Shown here piece after piece: positions 4,619 through 54,039 of a stretch of 64,000 nucleotides of DNA (position 1 is the stretch's first letter; the number at the start of each line of letters is the position of its first letter). The notes under the pieces are model-generated. The model was not told the origin of the DNA. It saw only the letters and a program-made list of their open reading frames with translations, and ran no database searches. Made by a program: the position numbers and the translations under genes. Source of the DNA: Cellulomonas uda (lineage in GTDB: Bacteria > Actinomycetota > Actinomycetes > Actinomycetales > Cellulomonadaceae); the NCBI RefSeq assembly GCF_006538705.1, contig NZ_BJLP01000001.1, positions 1 to 64,000 of the forward strand, read 5' to 3'.

Positions 4619-5431
4619 ATGCGACACGATCACGCAGGGTGCGGGCGGCGCGACGAGCGCCCCGACCCGATCGAGAACATCACCGGCCGCGAGTGCGGCG
4701 AACGACGACGCCGGCCCGAGGGCGGTCCCTGGGCGGACGTCCCGGACGGCTGGGACGGGCCGCGGCGCGGCCGCCGCGGCGGTCGCGGCTTCGGTCCGCG
4801 CGGCGGCTGGCCCGAGGGCCCGGGCGGGCCGGGCTTCGGCTTCGGACCCGGCGGTCCGCACGGCTTCGGCGGTCCCCGCGGCCACCGCGGCCGGGCCGGG
4901 CGCGGCGACACGCGCGCGGCGATCCTGCTGCTCCTCGCGGAGCAGCCCATGCACGGCTACCAGCTCATCCAGGAGATCGCCCAGCGCACCGAGGGGCGGT
5001 GGCGGCCCAGCCCGGGCGCGGTCTACCCCGCGCTGTCGGCGCTCGAGGACGAGGGTCTGGTGAGCATCGAGCGCGAGTCGGGCCGCAAGCTGGCCCGGCT
5101 CACCGAGGCGGGCGGCACGTACGTGACGCAGCGCGCCGACGAGCTCGGCGACCCGTGGCAGGCCGCGAGCGAGCGGCCCGAGCATCCCGGCCGGGAGCTG
5201 CACCGCGCGGTCGGCACCCTCGCGGGCGCGGCGGAGCAGGTCGCCCGCGCGGGCACGCCGCACCAGGTGGAGCGCGCGGTCGCCGCGATCGACGCGGCCC
5301 GTCGCGAGCTCTACCGTCTGCTGGCCGACGATCCCACGGGTGAGCCCGCACGCGACCCCGGGACCGGCCCGGGCGGCAGCACCCCGACCGACGCCGGCAC
5401 CGACGAGGGCCCGGACTCCCCGCGGCCGTGA
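4619..5431 (+). CDS. PadR-family transcriptional regulator
   Basis: 270 residues. A Gly/Pro/Arg-rich disordered stretch (about 40-95) precedes the PadR winged helix-turn-helix at about 97-170, with the family hallmarks ILLLLAEQPMHGYQL, PGAVYPALSALEDEGLV and the wing ESGRKLARLTEAG. A C-terminal helical region (about 185-245) should form the dimer arm. A clear ribosome site (CCAGGAGG) precedes ATG 4619. PadR proteins are usually repressors of transport or stress genes that respond to small molecules; the ATATAT-centred palindrome just upstream suggests it represses itself. No obvious target gene is co-oriented downstream. Confidence 0.9.
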   Translation: MRHDHAGCGRRDERPDPIENITGRECGERRRRPEGGPWADVPDGWDGPRRGRRGGRGFGPRGGWPEGPGGPGFGFGPGGPHGFGGPRGHRGRAGRGDTRAAILLLLAEQPMHGYQLIQEIAQRTEGRWRPSPGAVYPALSALEDEGLVSIERESGRKLARLTEAGGTYVTQRADELGDPWQAASERPEHPGRELHRAVGTLAGAAEQVARAGTPHQVERAVAAIDAARRELYRLLADDPTGEPARDPGTGPGGSTPTDAGTDEGPDSPRP

Positions 5432-5495
5432 CCCGGCCGGGGCAGGCGCGACGGTCGGCACGCGAGCCCCGCGTCGCCGACGGTCGTCGGGAGGG

Positions 5496-6638
5496 TCAGC
5501 CCGACGTGAGCTGCCACTCGCCCGAGCAGCCGGCCGGCCGGAAGCCGAGCGCGACGTTGATCGCGAGCATGTGGTCGTTCTCCTCGGCGTTCCAGGTGGC
5601 GACGCGCCGGGCGTCGGGCCGGGCGGCCGCGAGCCGCTGCAGGTTCACGGCCTTGAGCAGCATGCCCAGACGGTGCCCGCGGTGGCCCTGCGCGACGAGC
5701 GTGTCCTCCTGGTGCACGAGGTCCCGCACGGGCGGGATCTGCTGCAGCGTCGTGTAGCCGACGAGCCGGCCGGTGGGCACGTGCTGCACGGCGGTCGTCC
5801 AGGAGCGGGTGCCGCGGTCCCGGTGGGTGTCCTCGTGGTCGCGGACCCGCGCGGCGTCCCAGAGGTCCTGCTCGTAGTCCAGCCCGCCCAGGGGCGGCGC
5901 GACGCTCATCTCGGTGTAGAGCGCGGCGGCCTCGTCGAGCCATTCGTCGGGCACGCGGTCGTCCCACGTGACCACGCGGTAGTCGGCGCCCGCGGCCCGC
6001 GCGGCGTCGGCGCGGAACCGCTCGACCGTGCCGGCGGCCACGGGCAGCGCGAGCACGGAGCGCCGGGCGACCTGCTCGAGCGTCCACCCGCGCGCGACGA
6101 GGAACCGCACGCCCGCGTCGTCGACGGGGATGCGGCCGGACCCGGTGGTGGCGGTCCGGGCACCCGGGCCCGGCGCCGGCTCGGCGCGGTGGTCAGTCTC
6201 CGCCATGAGCGTGCTGCGGCCGTCCGCGCGGGCGAGCCGCAGCGCCTCGTCGTACAGGGCGGTGCCGACCCCGTGGCGCCGGTGCGCGGGGCGCACGGTG
6301 ACACCGACGTACGCCCAGGCGGTGTTGTCCTGCAGCGGCATGACGACGACGGCGCAGCCGAGCACGTCGTCGGGCCGCACGTCCTCGTCGGGCGTCCGGT
6401 GGTCCACGGCGACGAGCCGGACGACCCGCTCGTACGGCCGGGGGCGCATGCCGGCGAGCATCTCGGCGGCGTCGCGCTCGTAGTCGTCCGTGCCCCAGAC
6501 GTCGCGGCTGACCTCGTTGGACGCGGCGACGTACCCGCGCAGGAGCGCGGCCGCCGGCTCCGTCGCCGTGGCCGTGACCGGTACCTCCCGGATGCTCACC
6601 ACGCGTTCAGCGTGCGCGCGTCGGGTCCGGCACGTCAC
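5496..6638 (-). CDS. GNAT N-acetyltransferase with two GNAT domains
   Basis: 380 residues with two acetyl-CoA-binding GNAT units. The first (about 40-190) has motif A as VRPAHRRHGVGTAL; the second (about 215-375) has GHRGHRLGMLLKAV and NVALGFRPAG, the usual C-terminal GNAT strand-helix. This tandem layout resembles mycothiol synthase and other actinobacterial double-GNAT enzymes, in which only one site is often catalytic; acceptor is unknown. Start taken at GTG 6638, which has GGGGAA seven bases upstream; an in-frame GTG at 6599 is the alternative. Divergent from the next gene with only 26 bases between starts. Confidence 0.82.
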   Translation of the reverse strand: MTCRTRRAHAERVVSIREVPVTATATEPAAALLRGYVAASNEVSRDVWGTDDYERDAAEMLAGMRPRPYERVVRLVAVDHRTPDEDVRPDDVLGCAVVVMPLQDNTAWAYVGVTVRPAHRRHGVGTALYDEALRLARADGRSTLMAETDHRAEPAPGPGARTATTGSGRIPVDDAGVRFLVARGWTLEQVARRSVLALPVAAGTVERFRADAARAAGADYRVVTWDDRVPDEWLDEAAALYTEMSVAPPLGGLDYEQDLWDAARVRDHEDTHRDRGTRSWTTAVQHVPTGRLVGYTTLQQIPPVRDLVHQEDTLVAQGHRGHRLGMLLKAVNLQRLAAARPDARRVATWNAEENDHMLAINVALGFRPAGCSGEWQLTSG

Positions 6639-41770: not shown

Positions 41771-43213
41771 TCAGCTCGTCGGGAAGCTGTCCGCCGTCAT
41801 CACCCGGCTGCGCACGAACTGGCCGGACTGCGACAGCCGCGAGGTGCCGTAGTCGGAGCCCGAGCAGGTGCCCGCCTGGAACGCCGCGCTGGACTCCGGG
41901 GCGTCGGAGAACGTCCAGTTCACGTGGCTGATCTTCAGCGAGTCGAGCAGGTCGAGCCACGTGCGCGAGCTCGCGAGGTCCACCGTGCCGCCGCCGGTCG
42001 CGCTCGTCGTGCCCCACTCGCTCACGAACAGCGGGAGCTTGCCGGCCGCGTTGCGCACCTCGTTGCGGTAGTTGTCCTGGTGGGACGCCGCGTAGAAGTG
42101 GAACGTGTACATGATGTTGTCGAACGGCACCGGGTTGGCCACGATCTCCGCGGAGCTCGAGCCCTCCGAGACGCCGAGCGACGACCAGGCGCGGGTCCCG
42201 ACGAGGATCACCGCGTCGGGGTCGGCGGCCCGGATGATCGGGATGACCTGGCTCGCGTAGCTGCGGATGCCCTGCCAGGAGACGCCGTTCGGCTCGTTGG
42301 CGATCTCGTAGATGACGTTCTTCTTCGCGGCGTTGCGGGCGGCGACGCTGCGGAAGAACGTCTTGGCGTTGTCCAGGTTGACGTTGGGGTCACCGGGCGT
42401 GAGCGTGTGGAAGTCGACGATCGCGTACATCCCGCGCTGCTCGGCCGCGTCCACCAGGCTGTTCACCTGCGACGTGAAGCCGGACGGGTTGGTGACGTAG
42501 CCGTCCTCGTTGACGTACATCGCGATGCGCAGCACGTCGGCCTTCCAGTCCTCCGCGAGCGTGGTGAGCGACGCGTTGTTGTAGCAGCCGGGGAACCACT
42601 GCAGGCCGTGCGTGCTCACGCCGCGCAGCTGGATCGGCTTGCCGTACTGGTTGCACAGGTTCACGCCGCAGACCCGCAGCTGGCCGTTGACCGCCAGGGG
42701 CGTCGTGCCCGTGGGCGGCGGCGGGGTCGTCGTGGTGGGGGTGGGCGTCGGTGTGGGGGTCCGCGTGGGGGTCGGCGTGGGCGTGGCGGTCGGGGTGGTG
42801 GTCCCGCCCGTGCACGCGACGCCGTTCACGGTGAACGCCGTGGGCTTCGGGTTGGCACCGGACCACGACCCGTTGAAGCCGAAGCTCGTCGACGCACCGG
42901 TGGCGAGCGTGCCGTTGTAGCTCGCGTTGCGGGCGGTGACGGCGGTCCCGGACTGCGTGACGGTGGCGTTCCACGCCTGCGTGACCTGCTGGCCGGACGC
43001 GTACGTCCAGCCCACGGTCCACGAGTCGAGGCGGTCGCCGAGGTTCGTGACCGTGACGGCGGCCCCGAACCCCCCGCCCCACTCGCTGGTGACGGCGTAG
43101 TCGACCCTGCAGCCCACGGCCGCCTGGGCCGAGGACGTGGTGACCGCCCCGATGCCCACCGTCGCGAGCAGGGACGAGAGCACCAGGGAAGCTGACTTGA
43201 GACGCGCGGACAT
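41771..43213 (-). CDS. Secreted endoglucanase: CBM2 - Pro/Thr linker - GH5
   Basis: 480-residue cellulase that cleaves internal beta-1,4-glucan bonds outside the cell. Signal peptide about 1-31 (cleavage after SSAQA), CBM2 about 33-136 with flanking cysteines C35 and C134-type pair and exposed Trp residues, linker 138-169 of TPTPTPTPTR type, GH5 catalytic domain 175-480. Catalytic acid/base Glu is in IYEIANEPNG and the nucleophile Glu in LFVSEWGTT. GAGGAG precedes ATG 43213. The module order (binding module first) resembles known Cellulomonas endoglucanases. Acts with the xylanase at 52573 on plant cell walls. Confidence 0.94.
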   Translation of the reverse strand: MSARLKSASLVLSSLLATVGIGAVTTSSAQAAVGCRVDYAVTSEWGGGFGAAVTVTNLGDRLDSWTVGWTYASGQQVTQAWNATVTQSGTAVTARNASYNGTLATGASTSFGFNGSWSGANPKPTAFTVNGVACTGGTTTPTATPTPTPTRTPTPTPTPTTTTPPPPTGTTPLAVNGQLRVCGVNLCNQYGKPIQLRGVSTHGLQWFPGCYNNASLTTLAEDWKADVLRIAMYVNEDGYVTNPSGFTSQVNSLVDAAEQRGMYAIVDFHTLTPGDPNVNLDNAKTFFRSVAARNAAKKNVIYEIANEPNGVSWQGIRSYASQVIPIIRAADPDAVILVGTRAWSSLGVSEGSSSAEIVANPVPFDNIMYTFHFYAASHQDNYRNEVRNAAGKLPLFVSEWGTTSATGGGTVDLASSRTWLDLLDSLKISHVNWTFSDAPESSAAFQAGTCSGSDYGTSRLSQSGQFVRSRVMTADSFPTS

Positions 43214-43358: not shown

Positions 43359-44402
43359 TCAGCGGGCGAGGCGGTCGACGATCGCGCCGTAGACGCGGGG
43401 CAGGTGGGCGGCCGCCGGGACGATCGTGCGGCGGGCCGGGGACGTCGCGGCGGCGACGAGGCCCGTGGTGAGCACGCGGTAGTCGCGGGTGGCGCGCGCC
43501 CACGCGCGCTCGTAGCCCGCGGGGTCGTCGAGGTGGCGGACCGCGGCGGCCGCCTGCGCGAGCCCGACGCGCAGGCCCTCGCCCGTGAGCGCGTCCACGT
43601 AGCCGGACGCGTCCCCGACGAGCAGCACCCGTCCGGCCGTGCGCGCGGTGGTGCGCTGCAGCAGCGGGCCCGCGCCGCGCACCGGACCGTCCGGCTCGGC
43701 ACCGGCGAGGCGGTGCGCGAGCGCGGGGAGCGCGGCCAGGGTCGCGTCGAGGTCCGTGCGGGCGGGCCCGAGGACCGCGACGCCGACCAGCCCGGCGCCC
43801 ACGGGCGTCACGTACGCCTCCGCGTGGGGCGCCCAGTGCACCTCGACCAGGTGGCTCCACGGCGCGACCCGGTAGTGCCGGCGCAGCCCGAACCGCCGAC
43901 GCCCGTCCGCGCCCGCTCGTCGGACCGGGGCCTCGAGGCCCAGCAGCCGCCGGACGGTCGAGTGCAGCCCGTCGCACGCGAGCACGTGCCCGGCCCGCAG
44001 ACCGTCGACCGTGACGCCGTGCGCGTCCTGCCGCACGCTCGACGCGCGCCCGACGACCACCTCGGCGCCCAGCGCCGCCGCGCGGCGCGCCAACGCGTCG
44101 TGCAGCACGGTGCGCCGGACGCCACGGCCCGTCCCGCGCGGGAAGCGGTGCTCCACGCGGCGCGTCGCGTCCACGTACGCGATTCCGGTCAGCTCGTACC
44201 CCTCGGGGTCCACCCCGAGCCGACGCACGGCCGTGAGCGCACCCGGCATGAGCCCTTCGCCGCACGCCTTGTCGACGGGCCCGGTGCGCGGCTCCAGCAC
44301 CAGCACCGACAGCCCGGCGAGGCGCGCCTCGACGGCCGCGGCGAGCCCCACCGGTCCGCCCCCGACGACGAGCACGTCCGCGTCGAGACCTCCCGCGGGC
44401 AC
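43359..44402 (-). CDS. FAD-dependent oxidoreductase (geranylgeranyl-reductase/monooxygenase family)
   Basis: 347 residues. Rossmann FAD motif VLVVGGGPVGLAAAVEARLAG at the N-terminus (about 10-30), KACGEGLMPGAL, and the second FAD motif GRVLLVGDASGYVDALTGEGLRVGL around 255-280. In the Streptomyces srs pathway a related flavoenzyme hydroxylates the alkylresorcinol ring to a quinol/quinone; the position beside the type III PKS and methyltransferase supports that here. Reduction of a prenyl chain is the alternative role. Confidence 0.82.
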   Translation of the reverse strand: MPAGGLDADVLVVGGGPVGLAAAVEARLAGLSVLVLEPRTGPVDKACGEGLMPGALTAVRRLGVDPEGYELTGIAYVDATRRVEHRFPRGTGRGVRRTVLHDALARRAAALGAEVVVGRASSVRQDAHGVTVDGLRAGHVLACDGLHSTVRRLLGLEAPVRRAGADGRRRFGLRRHYRVAPWSHLVEVHWAPHAEAYVTPVGAGLVGVAVLGPARTDLDATLAALPALAHRLAGAEPDGPVRGAGPLLQRTTARTAGRVLLVGDASGYVDALTGEGLRVGLAQAAAAVRHLDDPAGYERAWARATRDYRVLTTGLVAAATSPARRTIVPAAAHLPRVYGAIVDRLAR

Positions 44403-44405
44403 CGC

Positions 44406-44930
44406 TCAGGCCTGCCGCGCGTCCGCGAGCGCGCGCTCCTCGGCGGGGATCCGGAACCCCAGCAGGAGCACGGCGTTGAGCACGGTGAACGCGAGCGCCG
44501 TGACCCACGCGGTGTGCACGAGCGGCAGGGCGACGCCCTCCGCGACGACCGCGACGTAGTTCGGGTGGCGCAGGAACCGGTACGGGCCGCGCGCCACCAG
44601 GCCGCTGCCGGGCACGACGATCACGCGCGTGTTCCACTGGGGGCCGAGCGTCGCGATGCACCACCAGCGCAGCGCCTGCGCCGCGAGAACGACGACGAGC
44701 ATGGGCCAGCCCAGCCACGGCAGGAACGGCCGGTCGGCGAGCGTGGCCTCCGCGACGCACGCGACGAGCAGACCGGTGTGCAGCGCGACCATCGCGGGGA
44801 AGTGCCCGCGCCCACTCTCGCGCCCGCCGCGCTCGAACGACCAGCGCGCGTGCCGCGCCGACACGACGAGCTCGACGAGCCGTTCCACGCCCGTCGCCAG
44901 GACGAGCACCGTGTACAGCGCGAGGCTCAT
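44406..44930 (-). CDS. Isoprenylcysteine-carboxyl-methyltransferase-like membrane methyltransferase
   Basis: 174 residues with four to five hydrophobic helices and the ICMT core: ALRWWCIATLGPQWNTRVIV, then GPYRFLRHPNYVAVVAEG, which carries the SAM-binding RHPxY motif. In srs-type operons (SrsB) such an enzyme O-methylates the phenolic lipid made by the PKS. ATG 44930 overlaps the PKS stop by 4 bases. Confidence 0.85.
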   Translation of the reverse strand: MSLALYTVLVLATGVERLVELVVSARHARWSFERGGRESGRGHFPAMVALHTGLLVACVAEATLADRPFLPWLGWPMLVVVLAAQALRWWCIATLGPQWNTRVIVVPGSGLVARGPYRFLRHPNYVAVVAEGVALPLVHTAWVTALAFTVLNAVLLLGFRIPAEERALADARQA

Positions 44931-46069
44931 GCCACACCATCCTCGTCGGACGGGGGCTCGTCGGACGGGTGCTCGTCGGACGGCCAGCGCAGTGCGACCA
45001 GCTCGACGCCCACGCCCGGCCCGAACGCCGTGAGCACGCCCAGCGCTCCGGGCGGCGGGGTGTCCGCCATGCCGTCGGCGAGCACGTGCAGCACCGACGC
45101 CGACGAGAGGTTCCCGGCGCGCGCAAGGTTCGCCCACGAGCGGGCGAGCGCGCCGTGCGGCAGGTCGAGCGCGTCCTGCACGGCGTCGAGGATCTTCGGG
45201 CCACCGGGGTGCACGAGCCACGTCGCGACGTCGTCGGGGACCGCGCCCTGCGCGGTGAGCAGCGCCTTCACGTCGTCGGCCACGTGCGCGCGCACGACGT
45301 CCGGAAGCCCTCCGGACAGCACGATCCGCAGTCCCGACGAGCCGACCTGCCAGCCCAGCGCGTCCGCGGAGCCGGGGTAGAGCACGCTGCGGGACCCGAC
45401 GACGCGGGGCGCGGACGTCCAGGTCCGGCGTGCGGGGCCCGACGCCGCCCGGGGCGCGGCACGTCCGCTGCCCGCCATGACCACCGCCGCACCACCGTCA
45501 CCGAACAGCCCGCTCGCGACGAGGTTGGCCGTCGAGTCGTCGTCGCGCTGCAGCGTCAGCGAGCACAGCTCGACCGACACGAGCACCGCGACCTGGTCCG
45601 GGTGGCCCGACAGGTGGTCGTGCACGCGCGCGAGGCCCGCGGCGCCGCCCGCGCAGCCCAGGCCGAAGCTCGGCAGCCGTGTGACGTCCGGGCGCAGCCC
45701 GAGCCGGTCGACGAGCATCGCGTCGATCGACGGCGCACCGATCGCGGTGACGGTGGTGAGCATGAGGTGGTCGACGTCGGCGGGTTCGAGGCCCGCGGCG
45801 GCCAGGGCCGCGCGGACGGCGCGCTCGGCGAGGTCCAGGCCGGTCGACAGCGCGAGGGCGTTGGTCTCGTCGAACCCGCCGAGCGTGCGGTAGCGCTCGA
45901 GGGGGACCGCGAGGTGCCGGGTGTCGATGCCCGACGACGCGTGCAGCCGCTTCAGCAGGACGCGGCGCGCGGGGTCCGTGGTGAGGATGTCGGCCAGCTC
46001 GTCGGCGATCTGCGACTGCGGGTAGGCATGGCGGGGCAGCACGGGTGCAACCGCCACGATCCGGGACAT
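44927..46069 (-). CDS. Type III polyketide synthase (chalcone/alkylresorcinol synthase family)
   Basis: 380 residues of the thiolase fold. Catalytic triad C139 (PSFGLGCAGG), H287 (WLVHPGG) and N320 (GNLSSAS) is complete. Condenses a starter acyl-CoA with malonyl-CoA to an aromatic polyketide, most likely an alkylresorcinol or alkylpyrone given its partners. The C-terminus has a tandem PSDE-rich repeat (HPSDEPPSDEDG) absent from standard family members. First gene of a four-gene minus-strand set only if the prenyltransferase at 46148 is included upstream. Confidence 0.92.
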   Translation of the reverse strand: MSRIVAVAPVLPRHAYPQSQIADELADILTTDPARRVLLKRLHASSGIDTRHLAVPLERYRTLGGFDETNALALSTGLDLAERAVRAALAAAGLEPADVDHLMLTTVTAIGAPSIDAMLVDRLGLRPDVTRLPSFGLGCAGGAAGLARVHDHLSGHPDQVAVLVSVELCSLTLQRDDDSTANLVASGLFGDGGAAVVMAGSGRAAPRAASGPARRTWTSAPRVVGSRSVLYPGSADALGWQVGSSGLRIVLSGGLPDVVRAHVADDVKALLTAQGAVPDDVATWLVHPGGPKILDAVQDALDLPHGALARSWANLARAGNLSSASVLHVLADGMADTPPPGALGVLTAFGPGVGVELVALRWPSDEHPSDEPPSDEDGVA

Positions 46070-46147
46070 GCCGGGATCGTCGCACGCGGATGCGCCGGCC
46101 GCGCGAGGTGGTGTCCGGGTGCCGGAGCGCTCGCTTTCAGCCTGTGG

Positions 46148-46969
46148 TCAGCCTGTGGTCACCAGGACCGCGACCGTCACCGCCGCGACGCCGATCGCCG
46201 CGAGGAACGGGTACCGGCGCGAGGGGCGGCGTGCGGCCACCCAAGCGGCGCTCGCGGCGAGCGCGGCCGCGAGGACCAGCGCGGCGATCCCCACGGCCGT
46301 GGCCCCGCCGGGCGTGCCCAGCACGACGAGCGCGGTCGCCGCGAGCAGCAGCGCGACCGCGCCCAGCGTGGTGCGGCGCCGACCGAGGCGGTGCGGCAGC
46401 CCGACGACGCCCGTGGCCGCGTCGTCCTCGAGGTCGGGCAGCACGTTCGCGAGGTGCGCCCCGACGCCCAGCAGGGCCGCGGCGACCGTCGTCGTGACCG
46501 GTGCGGCGCGGGGCGGGTCCAGGGCGAGCGTCGCGACCGACGGCAGCAGGCCGAACGACAGCGCGTACGGCGCCCACGACCACCGCGTGGACTTGAGCCA
46601 CAGGTTGTACGACCACGCCGACGCGACCGTGACCAGGTGCATGACGCCCGCGGCGGCGCCGAGCGCGAACGAGAGCACCACGCATGCGGCGACCGCGACG
46701 AGCGCCGCGGTGCGGACCGTGCGGACGTCGAGGGCCCCGGTCGCGATCGGCTTGTCGGTGCGGCCGACCGCGCGGTCCCGCGCCGCGTCGACCCAGTCGT
46801 TCGACCAGCCGATCGACAGCTGCCCCGCGAGCACCGCTGCCGTGACCAGCCATGCGGGCGCACCGACGGCCCACGAGTACGCCCCGGCGAACGCGGTGAC
46901 GGCGATCGCGGGCGCGGCGTGCGCGGCGCGCACCAGCGCCAGCACGCCCCGCGCCCCGACCATGCCCAC
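46148..46969 (-). CDS. UbiA-family prenyltransferase
   Basis: 273 residues with about eight hydrophobic helices. First Asp motif NDWVDAARD (N57, D58, D61, D65) and second motif DLEDDAATG are the Mg-diphosphate binding sites of UbiA enzymes; KPIATGAL and GRRRTT fit the family. Transfers a prenyl chain to an aromatic ring. 78 bases separate it from the PKS on the same strand, so the likely substrate is the PKS product. CAGGGT six bases before ATG 46969 is a near-match to the leaderless -10. Confidence 0.9.
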   Translation of the reverse strand: MGMVGARGVLALVRAAHAAPAIAVTAFAGAYSWAVGAPAWLVTAAVLAGQLSIGWSNDWVDAARDRAVGRTDKPIATGALDVRTVRTAALVAVAACVVLSFALGAAAGVMHLVTVASAWSYNLWLKSTRWSWAPYALSFGLLPSVATLALDPPRAAPVTTTVAAALLGVGAHLANVLPDLEDDAATGVVGLPHRLGRRRTTLGAVALLLAATALVVLGTPGGATAVGIAALVLAAALAASAAWVAARRPSRRYPFLAAIGVAAVTVAVLVTTG

Positions 46970-47053: not shown

Positions 47054-47125
47054 CGTCGGGTCGTGCGTTTGACGATGAGTCGCGCAGTCATCCGCACGAC
47101 CTATCGAGAGACGCGCGACCCGACG
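47054..47125. repeat. Nested hairpin intergenic element (copy B)
   Basis: Outer arms 47054-47068 and 47111-47125 (15 bp, one G-U). Inner arms GTCGCGCAG (47079-47087) and CCGCACGAC (47092-47100), loop TCAT; the inner stem pairs better on the minus strand. Same core as copies A and C. Confidence 0.75.

Positions 47126-52572: not shown

Positions 52573-54039
<1,467 letters not shown>

Follow-up and report, generated by a model that had tools for sequence, protein, structure and literature searches.

The srsABC genes of Streptomyces griseus and the pkqABC genes of Mycobacterium smegmatis are described as three-gene sets, and under native conditions the srs metabolite has resisted isolation (PMC9927152). 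A different system, the agq cluster of Actinoplanes missouriensis, makes alkyl-O-dihydrogeranyl-methoxyhydroquinones, and its O-prenyltransferase has been studied in vitro (PMC4044012). Here we describe a locus of Cellulomonas uda at 43359-46969 of a stretch of 64,000 nucleotides (contig NZ_BJLP01000001.1, positions 1 to 64,000, hereafter the window). Four intact genes on the minus strand code for a type III polyketide synthase (PKS), an Icmt-type methyltransferase, an FAD enzyme and a UbiA-family prenyltransferase. The first three form a core of the known srsABC/pkqABC kind, with the same gene order and the same tight packing. The UbiA gene adjoins this core in almost all non-mycobacterial relatives examined and is usually omitted from the described set. 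The four genes probably form one pathway, in which an srsABC-type core and UbiA together would make a prenylated alkyl-methoxyhydroquinone.

The UbiA-family membrane prenyltransferase (46148-46969, 273 aa) matches Pfam PF01040 with 87.7 bits, cut-off 34.2, and its gene starts with GTG or, alternatively, with an ATG at 46963. A spacer of 78 bp (46070-46147), which is a divergent intergenic region in most relatives, separates it from the PKS gene (44927-46069, start ATG, 380 aa). The PKS has the Pfam domains Chal_sti_synt_N/C, is of the SrsA/Pks11 type and is a predicted alkylresorcinol synthase. Its stop codon overlaps by four nucleotides (ATGA) with the start of the next gene, which encodes an SrsB-like membrane O-methyltransferase of the Icmt type (44406-44930, start ATG, 174 aa; PF04140, ICMT, 101.9 bits, cut-off 24). 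Three nucleotides after the methyltransferase stop begins the gene of an SrsC-like enzyme, predicted to be an FAD-dependent phenol hydroxylase/monooxygenase (43359-44402, start GTG, 347 aa; PF01494, FAD_binding_3, 50.1 bits, cut-off 22). This is the tight single-strand packing that the initial annotation of the stretch had reported. The active sites are intact. All four genes have a dN/dS of 0.14-0.27 against the nearest relative and the catalytic residues are kept in at least 97% of 121-147 relatives, which places the locus far beyond chance.

The proposed chemical steps and the product are deduced from characterised relatives. The PKS would use malonyl-CoA, and perhaps methylmalonyl-CoA as well, to extend a fatty acyl-CoA, and would close the chain to an alkylresorcinol. 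The Icmt-type enzyme would O-methylate one phenol and the FAD enzyme would hydroxylate the ring para to a free phenol, in either order, giving a 2-methoxy-6-alkyl-1,4-hydroquinone that could be oxidised to the quinone. UbiA would attach a prenyl group, most likely C10 and most likely as an ether at the 4-OH, with the chain staying unreduced unless a housekeeping enzyme acts on it. As the likely end product we expect a prenylated 2-methoxy-6-alkylhydroquinone, in which the prenyl group is probably bound through oxygen. Our guess for its biological role is a membrane redox or envelope-stress lipid.

The comparison took in 54 loci from the family of the host (home family) and a further 40 from outside it, with genes called by a codon-usage script and proteins clustered. 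In these 94 loci plus the window only four protein families recur, PKS, ICMT, UbiA and FAD with 91, 82, 81 and 78 members, and the next family is present in 13 loci, so the pathway unit is defined from the data and not from annotation. UbiA adjoins PKS-ICMT-FAD in 51 of the 54 home-family loci centred on the PKS, a count that, like the other linkage counts here, comes from loci that are not phylogenetically independent. It is divergent in 40 of the 51, the commoner state in the home family, and co-directional in 11, i.e. the association of UbiA and PKS survives inversion. Compared with the nearest relative (L035, UbiA at 5283-6080), the window has UbiA alone inverted, with TspO on one side and the PKS on the other in the same orientation. 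In two further home-family loci UbiA is paired with another PKS type. When the loci are centred on UbiA, a PKS is found nearby in about 30 of 39. The initial annotation had raised an independent neighbourhood of UbiA, for example among menaquinone genes, as the observation that would count against a joint pathway; instead, UbiA is linked to the PKS in the proportions given above, and MenA and CtaB are separate, distant genes. Judged from these sequence comparisons, UbiA belongs to the PKS-ICMT-FAD pathway, and the earlier suggestion of a prenylated product, with UbiA acting on the product of an srsABC-type core, is supported.

The same linkage is seen outside the home family. Of 547 confirmed loci in named genomes the scan covers the 80 best, and since its query lies close to the S. 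griseus clade, its Streptomyces counts are biased to this clade. By tblastn, UbiA is near the PKS in all 36 full-length Streptomycetaceae loci (33 by gene calls), in 11 of 12 from Streptosporangiaceae and in 3 of 3 from Pseudonocardiaceae. S. microflavus, S. globisporus and S. anulatus, which are close relatives of S. griseus, all have PKS-ICMT-FAD with a divergent UbiA. The four-gene combination spans these three families and others, and the link to cellulolytic actinobacteria made in the initial annotation is too narrow.

The Asp-rich motifs of the window UbiA (N57-D58..D61..D65 and D179..D183) are kept in at least 97% of 121 relatives. The enzyme is a member of the agq subfamily: in the UbiA tree, built with a quick method and moderately supported, the agq enzymes are nested among those of the srs-type loci, and MenA, CtaB and CrtEb from the same genome are located on very long branches. 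A role in menaquinone, heme or carotenoid synthesis was rejected, given this tree distance, scores below every equivalog cut-off (MenA, CtaB, CrtEb) and the presence elsewhere in the genome of CtaB (contig C40), MenA (C19) and a PRK13105-type, carotenoid-type gene (C12). A diverged UbiA relative with about 33-39% identity occurs in very small actinobacterial genomes of 1.2-2.2 Mb (family f102), and the single such locus compared (L287) showed no PKS.

Several observations weigh against the prenylated alkyl-methoxyhydroquinone. The prenyl length, the choice between O- and C-attachment and the position of attachment are taken from a single characterised relative, whose UbiA is about 44-50% identical. 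About 9 of the 39 loci centred on UbiA lack a nearby PKS, and this side branch of the subfamily would have another role or act in trans. None of the four mycobacterial loci has UbiA near the PKS by tblastn, and mycobacteria-like loci retain the PKS without UbiA, one of them together with ICMT and FAD, so the core works there without prenylation. Finally, Pks11 of M. tuberculosis, the best solved relative of the window PKS (315 bits), carries the name alpha-pyrone synthase in PDB and has the tryptophan that is taken to specify resorcinols. Among the UbiA relatives without a nearby PKS, three (L183, L186, L187) are each located beside a leucyl-tRNA synthetase gene.

As a variant of the proposed pathway, UbiA might C-prenylate the ring with a C15-C20 chain, giving a ubiquinone-like meroterpenoid quinone that possibly serves as a respiratory carrier. 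C-prenylation is what most characterised UbiA enzymes perform. Polyketide quinones are respiratory in mycobacteria and found in Streptomyces spores (PMC9927152), however the precedent for UbiA coupled to a small polyketide is O-prenylation (PMC4044012), by an enzyme of the same subfamily, and we consider the C-prenylated variant possible but rather unlikely.

Alternatively, the srsABC-like core alone could make an unprenylated methylated alkylquinone, a polyketide quinone as for pkqABC of M. smegmatis, with UbiA serving another quinone or lipid. The three-gene descriptions of srsABC and pkqABC (PMC9927152), the mycobacteria-like loci without UbiA and the UbiA relatives that stand alone speak for this explanation. 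Nevertheless, the linkage of UbiA is tight across families despite the orientation flips, one UbiA subfamily is linked to three different tailoring sets (see below) and MenA, CtaB and the carotenoid UbiA are located elsewhere in the genome, which makes an unprenylated product improbable.

In Bacillus subtilis bpsAB, a type III PKS is coupled to an Icmt-type methyltransferase that methylates a pyrone. By this analogy, and in line with the name given to Pks11, the PKS of the window might make an alkyl-alpha-pyrone that is methylated by the Icmt enzyme and tailored by the FAD enzyme and UbiA. The catalytic residues C139, H287 and N320 are present and conserved among relatives, and 118 of 123 PKSs retain the tryptophan (W240). 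This residue is a reported resorcinol determinant in type III PKSs (PMC5916927; PMC9927152), and SrsA as well as mycobacterial PKSs that carry it are reported to make resorcinols (PMC5916927). A ring-hydroxylating flavoprotein is also better suited to a phenol than to a pyrone, and we regard the pyrone as quite improbable.

The FAD enzyme was modelled with AlphaFold (pLDDT 92.5), and the nearest structures are aromatic-substrate halogenases, squalene epoxidase and p-hydroxybenzoate hydroxylase; the geranylgeranyl-reductase-like structure 3oz2 ranks lower with a Z of 31.4, where Z gaps below 1 are to be read as ties. Prenyl reductases carry a YxWxF motif, and it is present in the reductase of the same genome and in the cluster-borne reductases of relatives. 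In the FAD enzyme EAYVTP stands in its place; all 122 of 122 sequences keep E, Y, T and P, and 120 keep V. That the FAD gene encodes a prenyl reductase of the geranylgeranyl-reductase family and not a hydroxylase is very unlikely, since the matches that point there, 3oz2 as top profile match among PDB sequences and the geranylgeranyl-reductase superfamily as best NCBIfam family (95.6 bits, under the cut-off of 158.8), are outweighed by the replaced motif, by the higher structural ranks of the other enzymes, subject to the ties just mentioned, and by the retention of the gene both in loci with a true reductase and in the mycobacteria-like locus without UbiA. Ring hydroxylation is favoured because the motif is missing and the gene is kept in that locus. 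The fold is also near the aromatic halogenases, whose usual motif is WxWxIP; by direct reading this motif is not in the sequence, and a halogenase was rejected.

In nine srs-type loci (L155, L156, L157, L264, L268, L270-L273) there is an extra gene of the geranylgeranyl-reductase family, sometimes together with a NUDIX IDI-like gene. The added protein is a true family member (171.7 bits, same cut-off as above), and the loci with a true reductase also retain the FAD gene. Such extra genes fit a prenylated product whose chain is sometimes reduced. Neither gene was found in the window locus, so the chain of its product would probably be unreduced, unless a reductase encoded elsewhere acts on it. 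One strong prenyl-reductase candidate is present in the genome (contig C19, 240.6 bits); it lies beside a MenG-like methyltransferase frame, with MenA on the same contig, and is therefore more likely a menaquinone reductase.

The flanking genes do not belong to the pathway unit. Downstream there is a GH5-CBM2 cellulase (41771-43213) with its own start 145 bp past the FAD gene, which was rejected as a pathway member with a match at one locus only, and upstream of UbiA there is a TspO/MBR-like gene, rejected likewise with its family in four loci only. Together with a GH10-CBM2 enzyme (52573-53985), the GH5-CBM2 enzyme fits a cellulolytic actinobacterium. A scan of the locus for promoters and terminators gave no match, a scan that is uninformative in a high-GC actinobacterium. 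In the gap between the TspO-like gene and UbiA (window 47058-47101) there is a short inverted repeat, GTCGTGCG ... CGCACGAC, with partial copies adjoining, and L035 has a similar palindromic stretch in the same position between TspO and UbiA. The repeat is possibly a bidirectional terminator.

In comparison with the known systems, the core is closest to srsABC. The comparison was made with orthologues from species of the S. griseus clade, the genomes of S. griseus NBRC 13350 and M. smegmatis being outside the sample. The PKS, methyltransferase and FAD enzyme are 52, 67 and 59% identical to the S. globisporus set, and the methyltransferase is 63% identical to a mycobacteria-like orthologue. These identities, together with the conserved tryptophan, uphold the likeness to srsABC noted in the initial annotation. 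The difference is the UbiA gene: srsABC as described lacks it, while the examined loci of the S. griseus clade have it next to the PKS. The accepted view of srs as a three-gene set thus seems to omit a conserved fourth gene. We give about even chances to the broader proposal that srsABC is in reality a four-gene pathway, with a prenylated alkyl-hydroquinone as the native end product in Streptomyces and most non-mycobacterial actinobacteria, and with the alkylresorcinols and alkylquinones obtained by expressing the three-gene set as its intermediates. The omitted gene might help to explain the difficulty of finding native srs products, and a very common, product-poor gene set would be tied to a specific predicted prenylated lipid.

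The claim in the initial annotation that the combination and its product are undescribed stands for the product only, for which we found no report. Our literature search found no paper in which UbiA is given as a regular srsABC partner or a four-gene product is described, a weak negative as most subscription papers were outside the search. The combination itself has been recorded in a Dermatophilaceae strain, Gephyromycinifex aptenodytis NJES-13, where UbiA, type III PKS, Icmt methyltransferase and FAD oxygenase are annotated together as in the window (ctg1_2034-2037) and the set is listed as 100% similar to the alkylresorcinol cluster of S. griseus (PMC8779670). The authors assigned it to angucycline formation; the set is known there from annotated genes, with no phenolic lipid shown (PMC8779670). 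Its homology suggests a phenolic-lipid locus, and the angucycline assignment fits poorly. A Cellulomonas strain is also listed with a T3PKS 'alkylresorcinol' cluster from an antiSMASH-type call (PMC8194134), and UbiA-coupled PKS lipids are known in A. missouriensis.

In the genome taken as A. missouriensis 431T there is a single homologue of the window UbiA, 44% identical over the domain. Its gene is divergently oriented to those of a type III PKS, a flavoprotein resembling acyl-CoA dehydrogenases and a methyltransferase of class I. We take this locus to be the agq cluster. Like the window it has a type III PKS with an adjoining UbiA of the same subfamily and the same predicted chain of steps. 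In contrast, its PKS is only 34% identical to that of the window, and its methyltransferase (class-I Methyltransf_11) and flavoprotein have no similarity to the Icmt and FAD_binding_3 enzymes. The loseolamycin locus of Micromonospora endolithica, where UbiA, a methyltransferase, an acyl-CoA-dehydrogenase-like gene and a type III PKS are adjoining, also differs from the window by an agq-type gene set, and alkylresorcinols were isolated there after activation of the PKS (PMC7587189). Another set, with PKS, class-I SAM methyltransferase, UbiH-like FAD monooxygenase and divergent UbiA, is found in six loci (L085, L086, L180, L181, L184, L285) from other members of the home family and its order, and seems to be a third type of phenolic-lipid locus with a coupled UbiA. 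The UbiA enzymes of the srs-type, agq-type and UbiH-like sets form one family in the tree while the tailoring enzymes differ, therefore UbiA is the constant part. As this subfamily is common to three sets with different methyltransferases and flavoproteins, it looks like a common end step of actinobacterial phenolic-lipid pathways.

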